Below, piece after piece: positions 558 through 13,011 of a stretch of 27,873 nt of DNA. A program made the translations under genes and the position numbers. The notes beneath the pieces are model-generated. The model did no database searches, had not been told where the DNA came from, and worked only from the letters and a program-made list of their open reading frames with translations. The DNA comes from a virus: the IMG/VR virus record IMGVR_UViG_3300012931_000062, positions 1-27,873 of that record; one strand, written 5' to 3'. Every line of letters starts with the position of its first letter. Positions within the stretch are counted from its first letter, which is position 1.

Positions 558-784
558 CCCACACGATCGCTGCCCTCATCCACCATCTCGCCTCGTTCGA
601 AGGCACAGGCCACGTCGCTCTGCACGGCTACCCGCATCTCTGCGAGGCCCTCCCGGAGGCGCGACGGCTCGGGCTCATCGAGCACACGGGAGATAGCGAG
701 CTCGACCGCTACCACGCAAAATTGACCGAAACAGGACGACGCGCGGCCCTCGAGGGGCTTTGCGCGATGGAGGAGCAGACATGA
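554..784 (+). CDS. Small protein with possible winged-helix character, 76 aa
   Basis: The chosen start is GTG 554, which forms a GTGA overlap with the upstream stop. GTG 545, preceded by AGG at 535-537, is a reasonable alternative adding three residues. The sequence has two short helices followed by 'RRLGLIEHTGD' and then 'LTETGRRAA', a pattern common in winged-helix DNA-binding domains and in short phage proteins. That resemblance is weak and no DNA-binding role is claimed. Its stop overlaps the ATG of the adenine methylase gene (ATGA, 781-784), and GGAGG at 768-772 inside this gene serves as that gene's ribosome binding site. Confidence 0.55.
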   Translation: MTHTIAALIHHLASFEGTGHVALHGYPHLCEALPEARRLGLIEHTGDSELDRYHAKLTETGRRAALEGLCAMEEQT

Positions 785-1650
785 GAAGAAATCCACTGAT
801 AATGCCGCGCCCGATCGTCAAATGGGCGGGCGGGAAATCGAGCTCCGTGGCTAAGATCCTGGCGTACATGCCAGAGAAGATTTCGACGTACCATGAGCCG
901 TGCTTTGGTGGGGGAGCCGTGTTCTTTGCGCTTGTTCGTGCCGGTAGGTTCAGGCGCGCGGTAATCGGTGACACCAACCGAGAGGTTACAACCACCATGA
1001 TCGCGGTTCGCGATGAACTACCAGCAGTCATCGAGGCGCTCGCCGAGTTGGGATCGGTGCGAGTAACAGAGGAGCGATACAACGAGATCCGCGAGTTCAC
1101 GCAGGTCGGATCTGTTGGCGTTGCCGCGCGCTTCATCTTCCTAAACAAGACAGGATTCAACGGACTCTATCGCGTGAACCGTGACGGAGAATTCAACGTT
1201 CCGTGGGGAAAACACGAGCACTTTGTGCCTGACCGTGCGAACCTTCACGCCGTGTCTTCGGCGCTTCAAGGTGTCGAAATATCGCGGTCTGGTTACAACG
1301 TATCCACCGAAGACGCCGGCAAGGGAGATGTTGTCTACTTCGATCCGCCGTACTTCCCGATTTCGAAGACCGCGAACTTCACCGCGTACACGCGGCGCGG
1401 GTTCTCGCTTGCTGACCAGATCCGGCTTGCTTCGACGTTTGCTGAACTGTCGGCGCAGAAGGCAACGGTCCTGGCAAGCAACGCCGACGTGCCGCAGGCG
1501 CGCGCTATCTACGGGGCGATCCCTGGTGTCGAGACGGTCGAGCTTTCGTGCCGTCGAAACGTCAACTCGGACGGCTCCAAGAGGGGCCGCGTCGGGGAAT
1601 TGTTGTTCGTGGCAAACGGAAAGTTGAGAGCCGCGCAAGCGGCGGAATAG
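781..1650 (+). CDS. dam: DNA adenine methylase, Dam/D12 class
   Basis: The 289-residue product matches the D12-class N6-adenine methyltransferases (Dam, T4 Dam, DpnM) in length and motif order. It has the N-terminal 'KWAGGK' SAM-binding signature (residues 14-19), 'EPCFGGGAVFF' (39-49, motif I region) and the catalytic 'DPPYFP' (from residue 188). In the family these residues bind S-adenosylmethionine and transfer a methyl to adenine N6, usually in GATC; the specificity here is inferred only. ATG 781 is preferred over an upstream in-frame TTG (760) because it overlaps the previous stop and has GGAGG eight bases upstream. It lies upstream of replication genes and could methylate the GATC cluster in the candidate origin at 3971-4016, or protect against host restriction. 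Confidence 0.93.
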   Translation: MRRNPLIMPRPIVKWAGGKSSSVAKILAYMPEKISTYHEPCFGGGAVFFALVRAGRFRRAVIGDTNREVTTTMIAVRDELPAVIEALAELGSVRVTEERYNEIREFTQVGSVGVAARFIFLNKTGFNGLYRVNRDGEFNVPWGKHEHFVPDRANLHAVSSALQGVEISRSGYNVSTEDAGKGDVVYFDPPYFPISKTANFTAYTRRGFSLADQIRLASTFAELSAQKATVLASNADVPQARAIYGAIPGVETVELSCRRNVNSDGSKRGRVGELLFVANGKLRAAQAAE

Positions 1651-2358: not shown

Positions 2359-2700
2359 ATGGCGAACGTCGAGGCGCAGATCCAGAAAGCGATACTCGAG
2401 TGCCTGCAAGGCATTGGGTATTGGTGCTGGCGCAACAACTCCGGTAACACGGTTGTCGGAGAAGGCACATCGAGACGGCTGATTCGAATGTCTCCGAAGG
2501 GGAGCCCCGATATCGTCGGGGTTCTCCCGGGTGGGCGTTTTTGGGGCCTCGAGGTGAAGGTTCCAGGAAAGAAACAGAACGCCAATCAGATCGAATGGGA
2601 GGCGAAGGCGCGCAAGTTTGGAGTCAGGTACGCGGTCGTGGATAGCGTCAGTTCGGCGCTATCTGCGCTTGCGGCGTGGAAGCGGGAGGTAGCAGTGTGA
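2359..2700 (+). CDS. VRR-NUC domain nuclease, 113 aa
   Basis: This small protein consists of a single VRR-NUC (PD-(D/E)XK superfamily) domain. A glutamate occurs in the first helix ('EAQIQKAILECL'), the metal-binding Asp is in 'KGSPDIVGVLPGG' (about residues 50-62), the Glu-x-Lys pair is in 'FWGLEVKVPGKKQNANQ' and the conserved Gln follows a few residues later. Stand-alone VRR-NUC proteins are common in phage replication modules and family members act as structure-specific or Holliday-junction-type nucleases; the substrate here is unknown. The start is preceded by AGGAG (2352-2356 region) and the gene ends in a GTGA overlap with the next. Confidence 0.88.
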   Translation: MANVEAQIQKAILECLQGIGYWCWRNNSGNTVVGEGTSRRLIRMSPKGSPDIVGVLPGGRFWGLEVKVPGKKQNANQIEWEAKARKFGVRYAVVDSVSSALSALAAWKREVAV

Positions 2701-3521
2701 CCAAAAAACTCGACACCAAGATCAAGCTCAGTGCTCACCAAGTTCTCGCTGCACTGCGTGATAAAATGTTCGCCGGGGACGCCTGGGCGTGGCTGACGGA
2801 GGTTCGCAACGGAACCGGGTACCAGCGGACAACCAGATCGGCGGACGCTCTAGCGGTGTCATGCTGGCCCTCCCGCGGCCTGTTCGCTTCTGGCGTCGAG
2901 GTCAAGGTCAGCCGGAGCGACTGGAAACACGAGCTACTGCAGCCGGCGAAGTCTGACGAGGTGCAGCGGTTTTGCAAGTTCTGGTGGATCGCTACGTCGC
3001 CTGGGATAGTCCTGCACGAGGAGCTCCCTCCTGCCTGGGGTCTCGTCGAGACCGACGGGAAAACATGCTCGGTAATCAGGGCGGCGCCCGAGCTCGAGCA
3101 CAGAGAGCCGACTTGGCTGTTCCTTGCGTCCGTGCTCCGGAACGCGTCGAAGACGAACGAGGGCGCACTAGCTCGAGCTCGAGCAGATGGCTACAAATCC
3201 GGCTCGGAAAAAGCCGACGCGATCATCGCGGAGCACCAAACGGAGTTCCGCGAACTCCGGAGGATGGAAATGCTCAAGGCGCGCGCCCAGGAACTTGAGG
3301 CGCAGATCGAGAGCTTCCGTGAGTTAACGGGGATCCAGGTCGGCGGATGGCACGACCGCGACGCAGCGAAGGCGATCAAGGCCGCGAAGCTCTTACAGGA
3401 CGCGGATCTGGAGCGGCTCTCGAAGGAGCTGCAACACAACCTAGCGGCGTTGACAGCCGCGAGTGAGGCCGTTGGGGCACTTGCTGACATTGCAGTTCGA
3501 AAGTCAGAGGCGGCGGAATGA
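2697..3521 (+). CDS. PD-(D/E)XK nuclease-like protein with C-terminal coiled coil
   Basis: Translation most likely begins at GTG 2697 (GTGA overlap, GGGAGGT at 2684-2690), giving 274 residues; an earlier in-frame GTG (2676) would lie wholly inside the preceding gene. The N-terminal half has 'ADALAVS', then 'GVEVKVSRSDW' and 'KSDEVQRFCKFWWIA', the Asp...Glu-x-Lys arrangement and following helix of restriction-endonuclease-like folds such as MmcB-type phage proteins. The C-terminal half (from about residue 155) is charged and helical with long Glu/Arg/Lys/Ala stretches, probably a coiled coil. A 14-base palindrome (3171-3184) lies within it. The catalytic assignment is inference; it might instead be a DNA-binding relative without activity. 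Confidence 0.65.
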   Translation: MTKKLDTKIKLSAHQVLAALRDKMFAGDAWAWLTEVRNGTGYQRTTRSADALAVSCWPSRGLFASGVEVKVSRSDWKHELLQPAKSDEVQRFCKFWWIATSPGIVLHEELPPAWGLVETDGKTCSVIRAAPELEHREPTWLFLASVLRNASKTNEGALARARADGYKSGSEKADAIIAEHQTEFRELRRMEMLKARAQELEAQIESFRELTGIQVGGWHDRDAAKAIKAAKLLQDADLERLSKELQHNLAALTAASEAVGALADIAVRKSEAAE

Positions 3522-3568
3522 CTGCGTCCATGGAGCAACTGTACTTGGATAGAAAGGCGGCGGCGTAG
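3518..3568 (+). CDS. Possible 16-residue leader-type ORF bridging two genes
   Basis: An ATG at 3518 overlaps the upstream stop (ATGA) and reads 16 codons to TAG at 3566-3568, which abuts the ATG of the initiator gene at 3569 with no spacing. The ORF fills exactly the gap between two genes that otherwise would not be coupled. It could be a coupling peptide that carries ribosomes onto the initiator start, or simply chance. Ribosome binding for the next gene could use GAAAGG at 3552-3557 inside it. Confidence 0.3.
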   Translation: MTASMEQLYLDRKAAA

Positions 3569-4429
3569 ATGGCTGGAAGAATTCGCAGCATCAAGCCCGA
3601 GTGGCTGGACGATGAGAAGATGGCCAAGGCGTCTAGTGATGCAAGGGTCCTGTCAATCGCGATGATCTGCATGGCCGACGACTACGGCAACGGAAGGTGT
3701 TGCAAAGCGACTCTTGCCGCTCGCGTCTTCCCTCCCTCTGGAGACTCTCCAGAGGACCTCTTGCGGAGCTACGAGAGGTTCTCTGAGGCGCTCGCGGAGG
3801 TGCTCGAGATGAGGTTCGCCACCACTTACTCGGTCAGCGGGCAGACTTACTTTGCGATCCGCAACTGGGCAGAGCATCAGAAGGTAAATCACCCAGGAAA
3901 ACCGCTAGTTCCGCGTCCTCTTGAGACTCTCTGGAAAGTCTCTGGAGTCTCTCTTGAGACTCTCTTGCCTGATCAGGACCAGGACCAACGATCAGGACCA
4001 GGACCAACGATCGATCGCGAGCGAGAGGAACCACCGAGGAGCATCGTCCGCCAGAAGCCAGACGACCCGACCCGTCGAGCCATGGAGCCCCAGCGTCCCG
4101 AGGTTACCGAGCTGTTCGACGTCTGGCGATCCGAGTCCGGGAAAACCGGTGCCACCATGGACCGCGCCAGGAGCCAGCTGTTCGCGCGTTTGGCGTCGGA
4201 GGGGGTGACGGTCGCGGAGGTGCGCGAAGCGACGTCTGGAGCGAAGCTGGACCCCTGGGCGAGTGATTCAGCGAAGCTCTCCCCGAGCGCCATCCTCGGC
4301 ACCGCCGAGCAGCGTGAGAAATTCATCGCGCTGGCCCGTGACCCGCCTAGACCGAAGGGCTCAATGGAGTCGCGGAAAGTTCAACCGAATGCAGCGTGCG
4401 GACCGAGACCGAAGGAGTGGACTGGCTGA
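3569..4429 (+). CDS. Replication initiator / replisome organizer (lambda O-like role)
   Basis: The 286-residue product begins 'AGRIRSIKPEWLDDEKMAKAS..ARVLSI....ADDYGNG', the N-terminal winged-helix signature of phage replisome organizers (rep_org_N / lambda O-like). The central region (about 115-160) is low complexity (Asp/Gln, Gly/Pro, Glu/Arg) and lies over a repeat cluster. The C-terminal part ('WRSESGKTGATMDRARSQLF', then 'PWASDSAKLSPSAILGT') is the conserved tail found after initiator linkers and probably contacts the helicase loader. In lambda, O binds iterons within its own gene and recruits P-DnaB. The next gene here is a DnaC-like loader, joined by a TGATG overlap, supporting the same arrangement. 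Loss of function or truncation is not evident. Confidence 0.8.
   Translation: MAGRIRSIKPEWLDDEKMAKASSDARVLSIAMICMADDYGNGRCCKATLAARVFPPSGDSPEDLLRSYERFSEALAEVLEMRFATTYSVSGQTYFAIRNWAEHQKVNHPGKPLVPRPLETLWKVSGVSLETLLPDQDQDQRSGPGPTIDREREEPPRSIVRQKPDDPTRRAMEPQRPEVTELFDVWRSESGKTGATMDRARSQLFARLASEGVTVAEVREATSGAKLDPWASDSAKLSPSAILGTAEQREKFIALARDPPRPKGSMESRKVQPNAACGPRPKEWTG
3735..3755. repeat. Perfect 21-nt inverted repeat in the initiator gene
   Basis: CCTCTGGAGA is followed by one central C and its exact reverse complement TCTCCAGAGG. It contains GAGACTCTC, a nonamer that recurs at 3923-3931 and 3956-3964 downstream. It lies about 165 bases upstream of the main repeat cluster and could be an additional initiator binding site or an RNA hairpin; the shared nonamer favours the former. 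Confidence 0.55.
3918..4016. other. Candidate origin of replication with iterons
   Basis: Within the initiator gene, CTCTTGAGACTCTCT occurs twice exactly (3918-3932 and 3951-3965, 33 bases apart), with a GAGTCTC/GAGACTC hairpin between (3945-3951, 3956-3962). It is followed by two perfect tandem copies of a 19-mer (3971-3989 and 3990-4008, beginning GATCAGG) and then GATCGATC. Four GATC sites fall in 46 bases (3971, 3990, 4009, 4013). The 19-base unit is not a multiple of three, so the copies encode different peptides, which argues for selection on DNA rather than protein. The layout resembles lambda ori inside gene O. No clear AT-rich unwinding element is seen beside it. Confidence 0.6.
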
Positions 4430-5301
4430 TGGAACCTCTCGCAAATGTCGTGACGGGGATAAAATTCAACACGAACAACGGGCCGCAGTGGTCGGTCGAA
4501 GTGCTCGCCGAAGCTCACGGGATGAGCGTCGCAAGCATGACGGCGCTGTGGCGCGGGGCGGGACTTTCCCCGCCGACTGAAGAGGCGCGCTTGCTCAAGT
4601 TCCGAGCGTCTCCAGTGCTCGTGACCGAATTACACAGGCGAAGCGAGGAGCGCAAGGCGGCCATGGTCGAAAAGGCAATCGACCGAGCCTGGACAACGAC
4701 GCAGCTCGAGGGGATCGCGGCAAAGCGCCCGACAACCGAGAAGCTCCTTGGACACATCACAGATCCACGCCTACGGGCATTCGCCGAGCGGTTCGATCCT
4801 GAGCAGCACGGGGGCGCCCTTGTTCTCGGGCCGACCGGGATCGGAAAGACCATCGCGGCCCTGTGTCTGATGCTGCGATGCATGGCAAAGCAGGCCCGTG
4901 ACGCGTTCGAGTCTGACCTGACGGTCCCGTTCACCGAGATTACAACGCCGCGTTGCGCAAAGTCATGGGCTTCCTACGACGCACGCGACCTGGGAAACGC
5001 CATGCAGCACACAGGGCTGAGCGACGCTGACCACGCGAGCATCACACGGGCGAAGACTGCTGATTTTCTGATCCTCGAAGATCTGGGATGGGAGCGCGGG
5101 TTTCACGTGGAGGCCCTGATCGACATCGCTGCCCCCAGGTACCGACGTTGCCTGCCGACGATCGTGACGAGCGGAGAACGACACGATGTCTTGCGCGAGC
5201 GGTACACCGACGCGGTTCTTCGGCGGTTCTGGAACATCGACGGCAAAGACGGGGCAATCGTCGACTGCTGGGCGGCGCAAGAGTGCAAGGGGGCGGCGTG
5301 A
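4429..5301 (+). CDS. DnaC/IstB-like helicase loader ATPase
   Basis: ATG 4429 shares its A with the preceding stop (TGATG) and follows GGAG at 4414-4417; the in-frame GTG at 4396 lies inside the initiator gene and is less likely. The 290-residue protein has an N-terminal domain of about 100 residues, then an AAA+ core with Walker A 'GPTGIGKT' (134-141), Walker B 'FLILEDLGWE' (D218) and a later 'PTIVTSGE' sensor-1-like strand and 'LRRFW' box. This is the DnaC/IstB/phage P-equivalent architecture that loads the replicative helicase at an origin. No IS21 transposase is adjacent, so an IstB role is unlikely. Confidence 0.87.
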   Translation: MEPLANVVTGIKFNTNNGPQWSVEVLAEAHGMSVASMTALWRGAGLSPPTEEARLLKFRASPVLVTELHRRSEERKAAMVEKAIDRAWTTTQLEGIAAKRPTTEKLLGHITDPRLRAFAERFDPEQHGGALVLGPTGIGKTIAALCLMLRCMAKQARDAFESDLTVPFTEITTPRCAKSWASYDARDLGNAMQHTGLSDADHASITRAKTADFLILEDLGWERGFHVEALIDIAAPRYRRCLPTIVTSGERHDVLRERYTDAVLRRFWNIDGKDGAIVDCWAAQECKGAA

Positions 5302-6095
5302 TTAGCGTCCGTGTAATTCACAGCGACAACCGTCCAGCGCTACTGGATCTGGAGCCGCAGCTATCCTGTCGCGTCCACCTCGCTTACCTCGACCCGCCGT
5401 TCGCGACTGGCAAGACGCAAACCGGAACCGCCGGTAGCTACTCGGACACGTCAAGTCTTCGCGAGTGGATGGCCTCGGTGTATGCCACCGTTGAAGCCAT
5501 CAGGCCTCTGCTGCACGAGTCAGGGAGCATTGTTGTCCACTGTGACTGGCGAACGAATTGCCTAGCGAGGAGCCTGTTGGATAGAATTTTCGGGTTCGAC
5601 TCGTTTGCGTCCGAAATCATCTGGAGTTACAAACGATGGCCGACAAAGACGCGAAACTTTCAGCGCACGCACGATACGCTGCTGCGGTACGTCAAGGCAC
5701 CGGGCAAGCAGCGGTGGAATCAGCTGTACTCGCCACTTTCCACTTCAACGCTCAGGGCGTTCGGCGCATCGAAACAGAAAGCTGTGATCGAAGCGGGGCG
5801 CCGTGTCAGATCGACAACTTTGTCCAGTGCGTCACCTGGGGCACCGCTCGGAGACGTGTGGGAACTGCCAATTGTAGCCCCGATGGCTCGTGAGCGAACC
5901 GGGTACCCAACACAGAAGCCGGAGGCGCTACTCGAGCGTATCGTGCTTGCCACCACAAATCCAGGTGACCTAGTTCTCGATCCGTACTGCGGGAGCGGCA
6001 CGACGCTCGCTGTCTGCAAGCGGCTGGGGCGCGAATCAATCGGAATCGATCAGAACGAGGAAGCGATAGCGGTGACCGAGAGGAGGATCGCATGA
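5298..6095 (+). CDS. DNA methyltransferase, beta class (N6-adenine or N4-cytosine)
   Basis: The start is GTG 5298 (GTGA overlap); the longer in-frame extension back to 5088 is a shadow of the loader gene. The 265-residue enzyme shows the beta-class order: catalytic 'YLDPPFATG' near the N-terminus (DPPF, residues 32-35), a variable target-recognition region with Arg/Trp/Tyr-rich sequence, then the SAM-binding 'LVLDPYCGSGTT' (about 226-236) near the C-terminus, preceded by 'YPTQKPEALLERIV', a hallmark of this family. DPPF favours adenine over cytosine. No cognate restriction enzyme is beside it, so it is an orphan methylase, probably for protection or gene control. Confidence 0.9.
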   Translation: MISVRVIHSDNRPALLDLEPQLSCRVHLAYLDPPFATGKTQTGTAGSYSDTSSLREWMASVYATVEAIRPLLHESGSIVVHCDWRTNCLARSLLDRIFGFDSFASEIIWSYKRWPTKTRNFQRTHDTLLRYVKAPGKQRWNQLYSPLSTSTLRAFGASKQKAVIEAGRRVRSTTLSSASPGAPLGDVWELPIVAPMARERTGYPTQKPEALLERIVLATTNPGDLVLDPYCGSGTTLAVCKRLGRESIGIDQNEEAIAVTERRIA

Positions 6096-6289
6096 CCTAC
6101 CCGCCCGACATCGCCACCGCCACCGAGTGGAAAGCGTGGGTCGATTCTGTTGCGCCGTACCGTCGACCGTGTCACAACGAACTTCACAGCGAGATGCGTT
6201 TTCTAACGACCATCCAAGACCGCGATGTTGCAGCCCTGGGTGCGTGGGGGATTGTTGCGTCCTTGATGAAGAGGAGGGAGATAGCGTGA
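6092..6289 (+). CDS. Hypothetical protein, 65 aa
   Basis: It starts in an ATGA overlap with the methyltransferase stop and ends in a GTGA overlap with the next gene. The product is small and soluble-looking, with Trp residues near the N-terminus ('EWKAWVDSV') and a basic C-terminus. No family is recognised. An AGGAGGG sequence near its 3' end (about 6271-6278) provides the next gene's ribosome binding site. Confidence 0.6.
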   Translation: MTYPPDIATATEWKAWVDSVAPYRRPCHNELHSEMRFLTTIQDRDVAALGAWGIVASLMKRREIA

Positions 6290-11186: not shown

Positions 11187-11696
11187 ATGGCAAAACGAAG
11201 GCCCGCTAAGCGGTCCGCGCTACAGGCGCCGGGACGCGGCAAAAAGATCAGCACTGAGCTGACTGCAAAGTTTCGCGAGGCGTACCTACGCTTCGGATAC
11301 ATGACGGCAGCGGCCAACGAAGTGAAGCTACCCCCGACCTCCTGCGTAAGGCTGGTTGAGGAAGCAGAGAGTGACCCGGAATTCGTTGCGGCTCGTCGGC
11401 TGCTTTTGACGCGCGGGCTAGATCGCGTTGAAACGATGATGATTCGCTCGGCTGAGATAGCCACTGAGCGGATCGAAGCTGGCCCCACCGTGGATGCCAT
11501 GGGTGGGATAGTGGACAACGGCCCGCAGTATTTCCGCGGCCTGTCAGATGCGCACCGTTCTCTTGTTGCGCGCAAAGCGAAAGAGACGCCAGACGAGGCC
11601 GGGAAGGCTGGTCCTGTCGAGGTTCGGATCACGGTAAAGGCGGCCGACGCTATCGGCGCCGAGCAGGTTCCGGCGCCTGCCGATTCCGGTGCCTGA
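11187..11696 (+). CDS. terS: Terminase small subunit
   Basis: The 169-residue protein has a basic N-terminus (1-25) followed by an HTH-like pattern ('FREAYLRFGYMTAAANEVKLPPTSCVRLVEEAESDPEFVAARR' shortened: helices at about 28-70), the phage terminase small subunit architecture, then a helical oligomerisation region and a flexible acidic tail. It overlaps the large subunit gene by eight bases. Its role is recognising the phage packaging start and loading the large subunit; the cos or pac site is not identified. Confidence 0.8.
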   Translation: MAKRRPAKRSALQAPGRGKKISTELTAKFREAYLRFGYMTAAANEVKLPPTSCVRLVEEAESDPEFVAARRLLLTRGLDRVETMMIRSAEIATERIEAGPTVDAMGGIVDNGPQYFRGLSDAHRSLVARKAKETPDEAGKAGPVEVRITVKAADAIGAEQVPAPADSGA

Positions 11697-13011
11697 CTTC
11701 TCGCTTACGACGCCGCAGTCGTGGGCGCATCAAGCATTTCACTCGCGCCCTGGACTACCGAACACGGTCAACCTTGTTTGGTCGCGCGGTTCCGGTAAGT
11801 CGTGGTTCGAGCGATTCGAGGGCATCTGGCTTCCCGTCGCCGAGAACATTGGCAAGGTTAGAGCGAGCGCACTCAAGCCATTCAAGGGCGTTCGGATCAT
11901 TGGGCTCTGCCCAACCCTGAAGCAGTTCCGTGACATCCACGGCGCGAAGCTGCATGAGGAAAACGAGGGAGACTGGAAGTTCCTTGGTGGCAAGCTCAAC
12001 CACTCGACACTGCGGATTGACTGGCCTGATGGCAGTTGGTTCCAGCCGATGCCAGCCGCATCGGCATCAAGCAAAGCTGCGCTTGGTCAGCGGTGCGATT
12101 ATGTCTTGCTCGATGAGGCGGACGACATTGCTTCTTCCGTTTACCACACGGTGGTCCAGCCGTGGTTTACGGAGCCCTGGAGCTTTGCCCAAATCCTTTC
12201 GGGTGGCACACCGCGTCGCGGACGTCATGGTTTGCTCTATGAGTTGCACCGTCTAGGGATCAGCGCTGACCCGCTTGATGCGCGGTACTCGTCGAAGGTG
12301 TTCACCTGGCGGGATTCGCCGGAAATTATCCGACTCGACCAAATCGAAGACGCCAAGCGGAACATGCCGCCAGCGGTCTTCGCTCGTGAGTACGAGTGCG
12401 ATTTTGACTCTGCCGAGGGACTTGTTTATCCCTTCGAGGAAGATTTCCATGTACGGGCTCCAGACGAAAACGTCCGCTTCTTACGCTTCGCAATTGGTGG
12501 CGATCACGGTTGGAATGACCCCGGTGTCCTGCTCTTCGGTGGCATCGCTGGTCACGGCAACGATTCGATAATCTGGATCCTCGAGGAGCACTACGCTTCA
12601 GAGCGCCCCAATCATGAATGGGACGCGATCGTAACGGAGCGCTACCATGGGGTCCGTGGGTGGCTCGACCCTTCGAGACCCGACCGGATCAACGACTACC
12701 GACGAGCTGGACTTGACGCTCGCCCAGCCGACAACTCAATCGAGGCCGGTGTCGCGAGAATCGCTGAGTTGCTATTCCGGCGCAAGGTAGAAGACGGTGA
12801 AGACTACGCCCGTCTGTACATCCATCCGCGCTGCGTGAATACGATCCGCGAGTTCAAGAGCTACCGCCGCAAGCAAGACCCACAGAACAAAGACCGCTAT
12901 CTCGAGGATATCGTCGACAAAAACAACCACGCTATGGACGCCCTCCGCTACATGGTCGTTGGTGAGTTTGGGCGAAGTTTGAGCCGCCGCGGGTTGGTAG
13001 CTGACTCATGA
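11689..13011 (+). CDS. terL: Terminase large subunit
   Basis: The GTG start at 11689 overlaps terS by eight bases. The 440-residue protein has Walker A 'WSRGSGKSW' (31-39), Walker B 'YVLLDEADD' with D142-E143, a coupling-like 'SGGTPRRG', and a C-terminal RNaseH-like nuclease with 'IGGDHGWNDPG' (D272) and 'NNHAMDALRY' (D417). The length and motifs match headful/cos-type large terminases. It pumps DNA into the prohead and cuts concatemers. It is joined to the portal gene by an ATGA overlap. Confidence 0.95.
   Translation: MPDFSLTTPQSWAHQAFHSRPGLPNTVNLVWSRGSGKSWFERFEGIWLPVAENIGKVRASALKPFKGVRIIGLCPTLKQFRDIHGAKLHEENEGDWKFLGGKLNHSTLRIDWPDGSWFQPMPAASASSKAALGQRCDYVLLDEADDIASSVYHTVVQPWFTEPWSFAQILSGGTPRRGRHGLLYELHRLGISADPLDARYSSKVFTWRDSPEIIRLDQIEDAKRNMPPAVFAREYECDFDSAEGLVYPFEEDFHVRAPDENVRFLRFAIGGDHGWNDPGVLLFGGIAGHGNDSIIWILEEHYASERPNHEWDAIVTERYHGVRGWLDPSRPDRINDYRRAGLDARPADNSIEAGVARIAELLFRRKVEDGEDYARLYIHPRCVNTIREFKSYRRKQDPQNKDRYLEDIVDKNNHAMDALRYMVVGEFGRSLSRRGLVADS

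Follow-up and report, generated by a model that had tools for sequence, protein, structure and literature searches.

Replication origins have been mapped in few environmental phages, most of them remaining unmapped, and the virus record studied here raises the question of whether an origin can be recognised in its letters. The record (IMG/VR IMGVR_UViG_3300012931_000062, positions 1 to 27,873) was analysed over its whole length of 27,873 bases, hereafter called the window. Inside its replication initiator gene, the first-pass annotation had noticed a dense group of repeats, compared it to the iterons of lambda O, and proposed that GATC sites within it place origin firing under methylation control. 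Two questions follow: are these repeats an origin, and are the GATC sites a switch? From the comparisons below, we conclude that the iterons, together with the array that follows them, very probably form the theta-type replication origin of the phage, inside its own initiator gene, and that the GATC sites are best explained otherwise. Coordinates are given in Table 1.

Table 1. Features in and around the putative origin (positions in the window; residues for protein domains).
Feature	Position	Strand	Remarks
D12-class (Dam/DpnM-like) adenine methylase	760..1650	+	PF02086, 5.9e-44; outside the conserved origin module
Replication initiator gene	3569..4429	+	286 aa; phrog_2149 replication initiation protein, E 2e-27, residues 4-259 of 286
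Initiator domains			N-terminal winged-helix region, about 1-110; predicted disordered linker, about 126-163; helical C-terminal region, 177-257
Iteron cluster I	3735..3757		two 11-bp units (3736, 3747); includes palindrome CCTCTGGAGACTCTCCAGAGG; codons 56-63
Iteron cluster II	3918..3966		11-bp units from 3918, 3929, 3940 and 3951, plus half unit at 3962; core TC-TK-GA / GAGACTCTC
Junction GCCT	3967..3970	+	between iterons and array; CGCCT or TTGCCT in many relatives
Polar GANC array	3971..4016	+	GATC/GACC cores at 3971, 3977, 3983, 3990, 3996, 4002, 4009, 4013
DnaC-like helicase loader	4429..5301	+	phrog_50, 3.4e-10; phrog_3277, 3.6e-09; start overlaps the initiator stop

The direct repeats, the tandem and the GATC block were all exact as originally described. 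The 15-mer CTCTTGAGACTCTCT is found at 3918-3932 and 3951-3965, a separation of 33 nt (3 x 11), and cluster II as a whole reads as an 11-bp tandem over 3918-3967 (4.5 copies, TRF score 65). The 19-mer GATCAGGACCAGGACCAAC forms a perfect tandem at 3971-3989 and 3990-4008, prolonged by GATCGATC up to 4016 (TRF score 84). These are the two top-scoring tandem arrays of the window, and no second array comparable to 3971-4016 was found in it. The array reads GATC-AG, GACC-AG, GACC-AAC, repeated, then GATC GATC; its eight GANC cores are spaced by 6, 6, 7, 6, 6, 7 and 4 nt, with N=T in four and N=C in four. The 19-mer consists of three such units (6+6+7), hence a length that is not a multiple of three, and the four GATC, starting at 3971, 3990, 4009 and 4013, fall within 46 nt.

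The score of 23 obtained for the 19-mer was reached in none of 5000 synonymous-codon shuffles in which the protein was held constant (null maximum 17), and the score of 15 for the 11-bp cluster in 5 of 5000. Protein repeats are therefore excluded as the cause of the DNA repeats, as had been argued from the start. Density of GATC alone is only mildly unusual: of 200 Markov-1 copies of the window, 22 had four GATC in 46 nt at some point, as had 55 of 3000 shuffles of the gene with synonymous codons. The hairpin that had been reported within 3918-4016 was rejected; hairpins can be drawn there, with a folding on a par with that of shuffled copies (z −0.74, 43/200 as good). A strong palindrome lies outside this interval instead, at 3735-3755, with 10-bp arms (z −2.68, 1 of 200 shuffles as good), and fits as the first iteron cluster.

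The array is coded within a linker predicted to be disordered, between the winged-helix and the helical C-terminal regions, and residues 126-163 are of low confidence in the AlphaFold model of the initiator (pLDDT 80.9). Structure matches in BFVD include named replisome organizers. Foldseek against the PDB returned weak winged-helix matches only, among them 4pt7 and 4pql (E 0.12-0.19), which we take to be staphylococcal RepA, a RepA_N-type initiator of the pSK41 kind. A profile search against solved structures gave no relative (best E 0.57), and no Pfam family matched at E<=1, neither an O-type initiator domain nor a RepA_N domain; the best PHROG was phrog_2149.

Upstream of the initiator are encoded a VRR_NUC nuclease (2359-2700, PF08774, 1.5e-06) and a protein at 2676-3521 (phrog_14517, 5.3e-40; weak MmcB likeness in Pfam). 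A 230-aa ORF at 1661-2353, between the D12 methylase and the nuclease, has no Pfam match at E<=1 and very weak PHROG matches only. Immediately 3′ of the loader lies a second DNA methylase (5298-6095, PF01555 N6_N4_Mtase, E 6.1e-48); the methylase survey reported below covered PF02086. The terminase large subunit (11689-13011) is 43% identical to MW202476 (Manatee Spring), a record that also holds a 30% match to the loader of the window. GC skew, which had been put forward as a way of locating the origin, gave no signal there: no switch was seen near 4 kb, and cumulative skew climbed smoothly to about 13 kb of the window.

Scanning a viral contig collection with the single initiator, the single loader or the exact 19-mer found nothing. 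Relatives were recovered there only with a five-row protein alignment, which yielded 80 loci, and a held-out set of 80 loci came from bacterial genomes, both being gathered by protein similarity and not by repeats. Homologues in phage records numbered 364, all below 60% identity to the window initiator. Repeats were scored as the best local tandem self-match of period 5-40 and compared with 300 synonymous shuffles, with a cut at p<=0.01. For the viral loci found by protein alone, 65 of 80 initiator genes passed. The first set gave 80 of 96 (16 above the cut) versus 3 of 176 flanking ORFs; its 96 genes comprise the 80 just named, 8 picked by iteron pattern (all 8 significant), that of the window, and those of 7 phage records, of which all but Mx8 were significant. 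The held-out set gave 58 of 80 (22 above the cut) versus 2 of 145 flanking ORFs. Control ORFs were chosen mechanically, as the longest ORF of at least 100 aa in the roughly 1.5 kb to either side, and not all of them need be genes. As a yardstick, the same test gave p=0.010 at codons 117-128 of lambda O, a proven origin, and p=0.81 for lambda P; TP901-1 rep, presumably also a proven intragenic origin, gave p=0.09. Relatives devoid of repeats, with replication genes unchanged, had been named as the observation that would speak against an origin. The opposite was found, most relatives bearing repeats at the same place, and this supports reading the segment as an iteron cluster of origin type, placed, by analogy with lambda O, in the linker that is predicted to be disordered.

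Seven individual phages illustrate the plan in part. In Bifidobacterium phage BigBern1, 11-bp GAGACTCTC iterons form two clusters separated by about 180 bp, and four 8-mers GGGGAACA are present; Gordonia phage Matteo follows this plan with a different iteron, CGGCGGAACTTCCG; the 8-mer array is also present in MichelleMyBell and WilliamBoone. In Mx8, VvAW1 and Tyrion, a first tandem search found nothing comparable; the later shuffle test detected a GGATCAG array in Tyrion (p 0.003) and a weaker repeat in VvAW1 (p 0.007), with p 0.033 for Mx8. The junction GAGACTCTCTTGCCTG is identical in the window and in BigBern1, yet it is read in different frames (E-T-L-L-P and D-S-L-A-W, respectively), meaning that DNA, not protein, is conserved at this point.

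The viral collection was also scanned with the motif GAGACTCTC-N2-GAGACTCTC alone. Of the ten stretches found, 9 fall within an initiator gene: six in its linker (L011, L012, L014, L016, L017, L018), one near codon 64 (L010), and two at codons 15-24 (L013, L015), where a protein motif may contribute. Eight of the 9 belong to phrog_2149-like initiators. The remaining one, L017 (3935-4744), encodes a different initiator (PF14297 Lin1244_N, E 3.2e-10), with 11-bp GAGAGTCTC iterons in its linker and then a purine-rich GAATA/GAACA array, which suggests that the plan extends beyond phrog_2149. The tenth stretch, outside any initiator, is a tandem iteron pair around 1216-1235 of L009/L181. This record gave no hit with the initiator profile, and the pair precedes a large ORF that looks FtsK-like by eye; a borrowed origin, a partition site or chance could each account for it, in no order of preference. 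The gene next to the initiator encodes a DnaC-like loader in the window and Mx8, a DnaB-like helicase in L099, L048 and L173, and phrog_6055, of unknown function, in L007 and L005; no family was found for it in L019, L101, L053 and L112.

The position of the iterons was examined in 162 non-redundant genes, i.e. 176 minus those removed by a 4-mer similarity filter. TCGCGA was observed 103 times at codons 38-52 (7.1 expected), 101 times at codons 52-75 (12.0 expected) and 259 times at codons 105-155 (38.9 expected), whatever excess there was elsewhere being slight (14 versus 12.8 at codons 0-38, 13 versus 8.7 at codons 75-105, and also 51 versus 35.8). The type present in the window, GAGASTCTC, was found 15 times versus 0.8 expected at codons 52-75, 31 versus 1.9 at codons 105-155, and 4 versus 0.4 at codons 0-38. 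Clusters I and II of the window sit in the two family-wide peaks, at codons 38-75 and 105-155, respectively. Helically spaced TC-NN-GA pairs occurred in both clusters in 86 of the 162 genes, versus 0.4 in shuffles. The TCGCGA cores of cluster II are distributed over all three reading frames (114/79/66), so the constraint acts on DNA.

A period 5-8 array was counted in 137 of the 162 genes by a score cut without shuffles (period 7 in 60, 5 in 30, 8 in 29 and 6 in 18). Its consensus unit holds GA in 129 of the 137 and GGA in 112, the chance rate of GGA in a unit being roughly 1 in 9 by hand estimate. Chains of at least 5 GGA units were present in 108 of 162 genes versus TCC chains in 1 of 162, which places the array on the coding strand; the polarity may in part reflect the hydrophilic linker, whose codons could by themselves enrich the coding strand in purines. 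Of 176 genes, only 29 had a significant chain of strict GANC, against 82 for GGA and 98 for either of the two, so that the array is best described as GGA and GANC together, and not as a single strict motif. Significant arrays were found in 76 genes, 21 of them without a scorable iteron core. Of the 55 genes with cores, 49 had them exclusively 5′ of the array and 6 on both sides of it, and no gene had them exclusively 3′; the median iteron-to-array gap was 13 nt (interquartile 12-21).

Array period class clusters on a tree built from the N-terminal domain: it needs 14 changes, versus a mean of 31.2 after shuffling (0/200 as low). This would fit recognition by the phage protein, with the caveat that the tree has few columns and that host and initiator are partly confounded. 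On this tree, a betaproteobacterial locus, from Rugamonas, groups with actinobacterial initiators and bears their 8-mer. An AT-rich unwinding element was rejected: no AT-rich region was found beside the iterons, the A+T content of the array exceeding that of its gene by only 3%, and over the 76 arrays the mean A+T of array plus adjoining 60 nt stayed within about 3% of the gene mean. At the level of sequence, these comparisons show two clusters of 10-11-bp dyad iterons and, 3′ of the second at a near-fixed distance, a strand-polar GGA/GANC array; this DNA layout is conserved across very divergent initiators, and the reading frame over it is not.

We next consider the GATC block. An origin controlled by Dam methylation of these sites would be in keeping with the D12 enzyme of the window, rightly described as Dam-class (nearest solved structure 2dpm, DpnII-1 methylase, 1.1e-40; E. 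coli Dam 2g1p, 1.2e-31), with the four GATC of the array, and with the over-representation of GATC across the window (184 versus 151.7 expected, sd 11.4, 0/100 shuffles). The relatives tell another story. Arrays are enriched over the rest of the gene in GAAC (30.9 versus 5.7 per kb), GACC (26.9 versus 6.7) and GATC (18.2 versus 5.7), and contain GAGC at 8.7 versus 6.8; reverse complements inside arrays amount to 0 per kb for GTTC and GCTC, and 0.4 for GGTC. A Dam/SeqA-type origin would conserve GATC as such, whereas here N is A, C, G or T, and a strand-polar motif does not call for a palindromic mark. PF02086 was found in 1 of 68 records, that of the window, and was absent from 67 of 67 related records, bearing in mind that virus records may be fragments. 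Among the 59 related records with an array, 25 have GATC in or beside it, and none has a D12 methylase. Because the GANC forms interchange, their reverse complements are near absent and PF02086 occurs in 1 of 68 records, the GATC block is best seen as arising along with the array, its sites being GANC with N=T, and not as a dedicated methylation switch; Dam control of the origin is accordingly a very improbable reading. The GATCs of the window may nevertheless be methylated in this phage, and host Dam could methylate some array GATCs.

Three further explanations concern the iterons or the array itself. Plasmid and phage initiators often autoregulate, and dyad sites for a winged-helix protein in its own gene could be a roadblock or silencer; the iterons would then be operators of the initiator/loader operon, or else a partition site, and the iteron pair of L009/L181 does lie outside any initiator gene. 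We regard this as improbable, given that the sites lie deep within the coding sequence, that cluster II is followed by a polar array, that TCGCGA has no excess near the gene start, and that the only sigma-70-like match within 2600-6200 is at 5558, away from the iterons. Neutral slippage, in a linker tolerating any hydrophilic sequence, is a highly improbable source of the repeats: the linker is predicted to be disordered and the perfect 19-mer tandem looks recent, but divergent lineages share the same kind of GGA-bearing unit, at a near-fixed gap from the iterons and on one strand only, and the shuffles had excluded protein repeats. Finally, the array might belong to an origin as a G-quadruplex or primase-site element, not as a track for strand capture. 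The fourfold GGGGAACA arrays of actinophages hold four G-runs; these are not a common property, however, some arrays having no GG on the coding strand (GACCTCC, GACCTAC and GACCCC units), and no primase trinucleotide is common to all units, which makes this proposal unlikely as well.

The origin reading was therefore compared with known systems. Phased repeats in an initiator gene, beyond coding constraint, are what is expected of intragenic iteron origins in general, and are found here. In lambda, O binds repeats inside its own gene, with an AT-rich region beside them, and a loader brings in the helicase (PMC5043065, PMC7466680). The putative origin resembles lambda ori in its position in the middle of the initiator gene, with iterons upstream of the region to be opened and the helicase loader gene next. 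It departs from the four 18-19-bp iterons and 40-bp AT-rich tract of lambda: its iterons are 11-bp dyads grouped in two clusters, and a polar, GC-tolerant array of GANC units follows them. A long GGA chain is missing from lambda O (2 units); the lambda stretch 3′ of the iterons is also purine-rich on the coding strand. SPP1 gp38 binds repeats in its own gene, oriL, beside an AT-rich region, with a separate loader (PMC6316719). The likeness lies in direct repeats in an organizer gene and in the BFVD matches naming replisome organizers; SPP1 differs by its AT-rich unwinding element, of which there is none here, and by a second origin, oriR.

For pSK41, an origin in rep is described, bound by the N-terminal domain, with a dispensable encoded linker and a separate C-terminal domain (PMC5703833). 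As in these RepA_N plasmids, the boxes here are central in the gene, and the linker they encode lies between two domains. The window initiator is unlike them in having no RepA_N sequence match, two iteron clusters with an array, and, in a phage, its own DnaC-like or DnaB-like partner. For the RepA-like mycobacteriophage prophages Miko and Jeeves, a cis-acting origin is presumed within or beside repA, and no repeated motifs were reported in the regions studied (PMC7157519). Some relatives of the window initiator are annotated RepA-like.

How could such an origin work? The N-terminal winged-helix domain of the initiator would bind the iterons, and the helically phased clusters would fold into a compact complex. 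Strands would separate at or beside the array, which would serve as a track on which one strand is captured and the replicative helicase delivered, in the window by the DnaC-like loader encoded next door. The encoded linker would be a spacer, tolerating whatever the DNA spells. By analogy, the array may take the place of the AT-rich region of lambda and SPP1, as a GC-tolerant equivalent. A broader proposal, which we make tentatively and consider possible but rather doubtful, is that of a large and taxonomically wide class of phage origins, in which a strand-polar GGA/GANC array with a unit every 5-8 nt, at a near-fixed gap from phased iterons, replaces the AT-rich unwinding element. It would be a GC-tolerant counterpart of the DnaA-box/DnaA-trio arrangement known in bacterial origins, the initiator or loader reading one exposed strand unit by unit, opening the duplex and placing the helicase.

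The general kind of origin is known from lambda O, SPP1 gene 38 and the RepA_N plasmids; in lambda and SPP1, an AT-rich region occupies the place of the polar GANC array. No description of this layout in phrog_2149-like initiators was found in the literature searched, most subscription papers being outside the search. Since the layout can be recognised in the letters by themselves, it would point to the origin in many phages and prophages of Proteobacteria, Actinobacteria, Planctomycetes, Myxococcota and others. It supplies mini-replicon and incompatibility markers, and makes the opening of a GC-rich origin without an AT-rich element testable, namely what reads the array, and on which strand.
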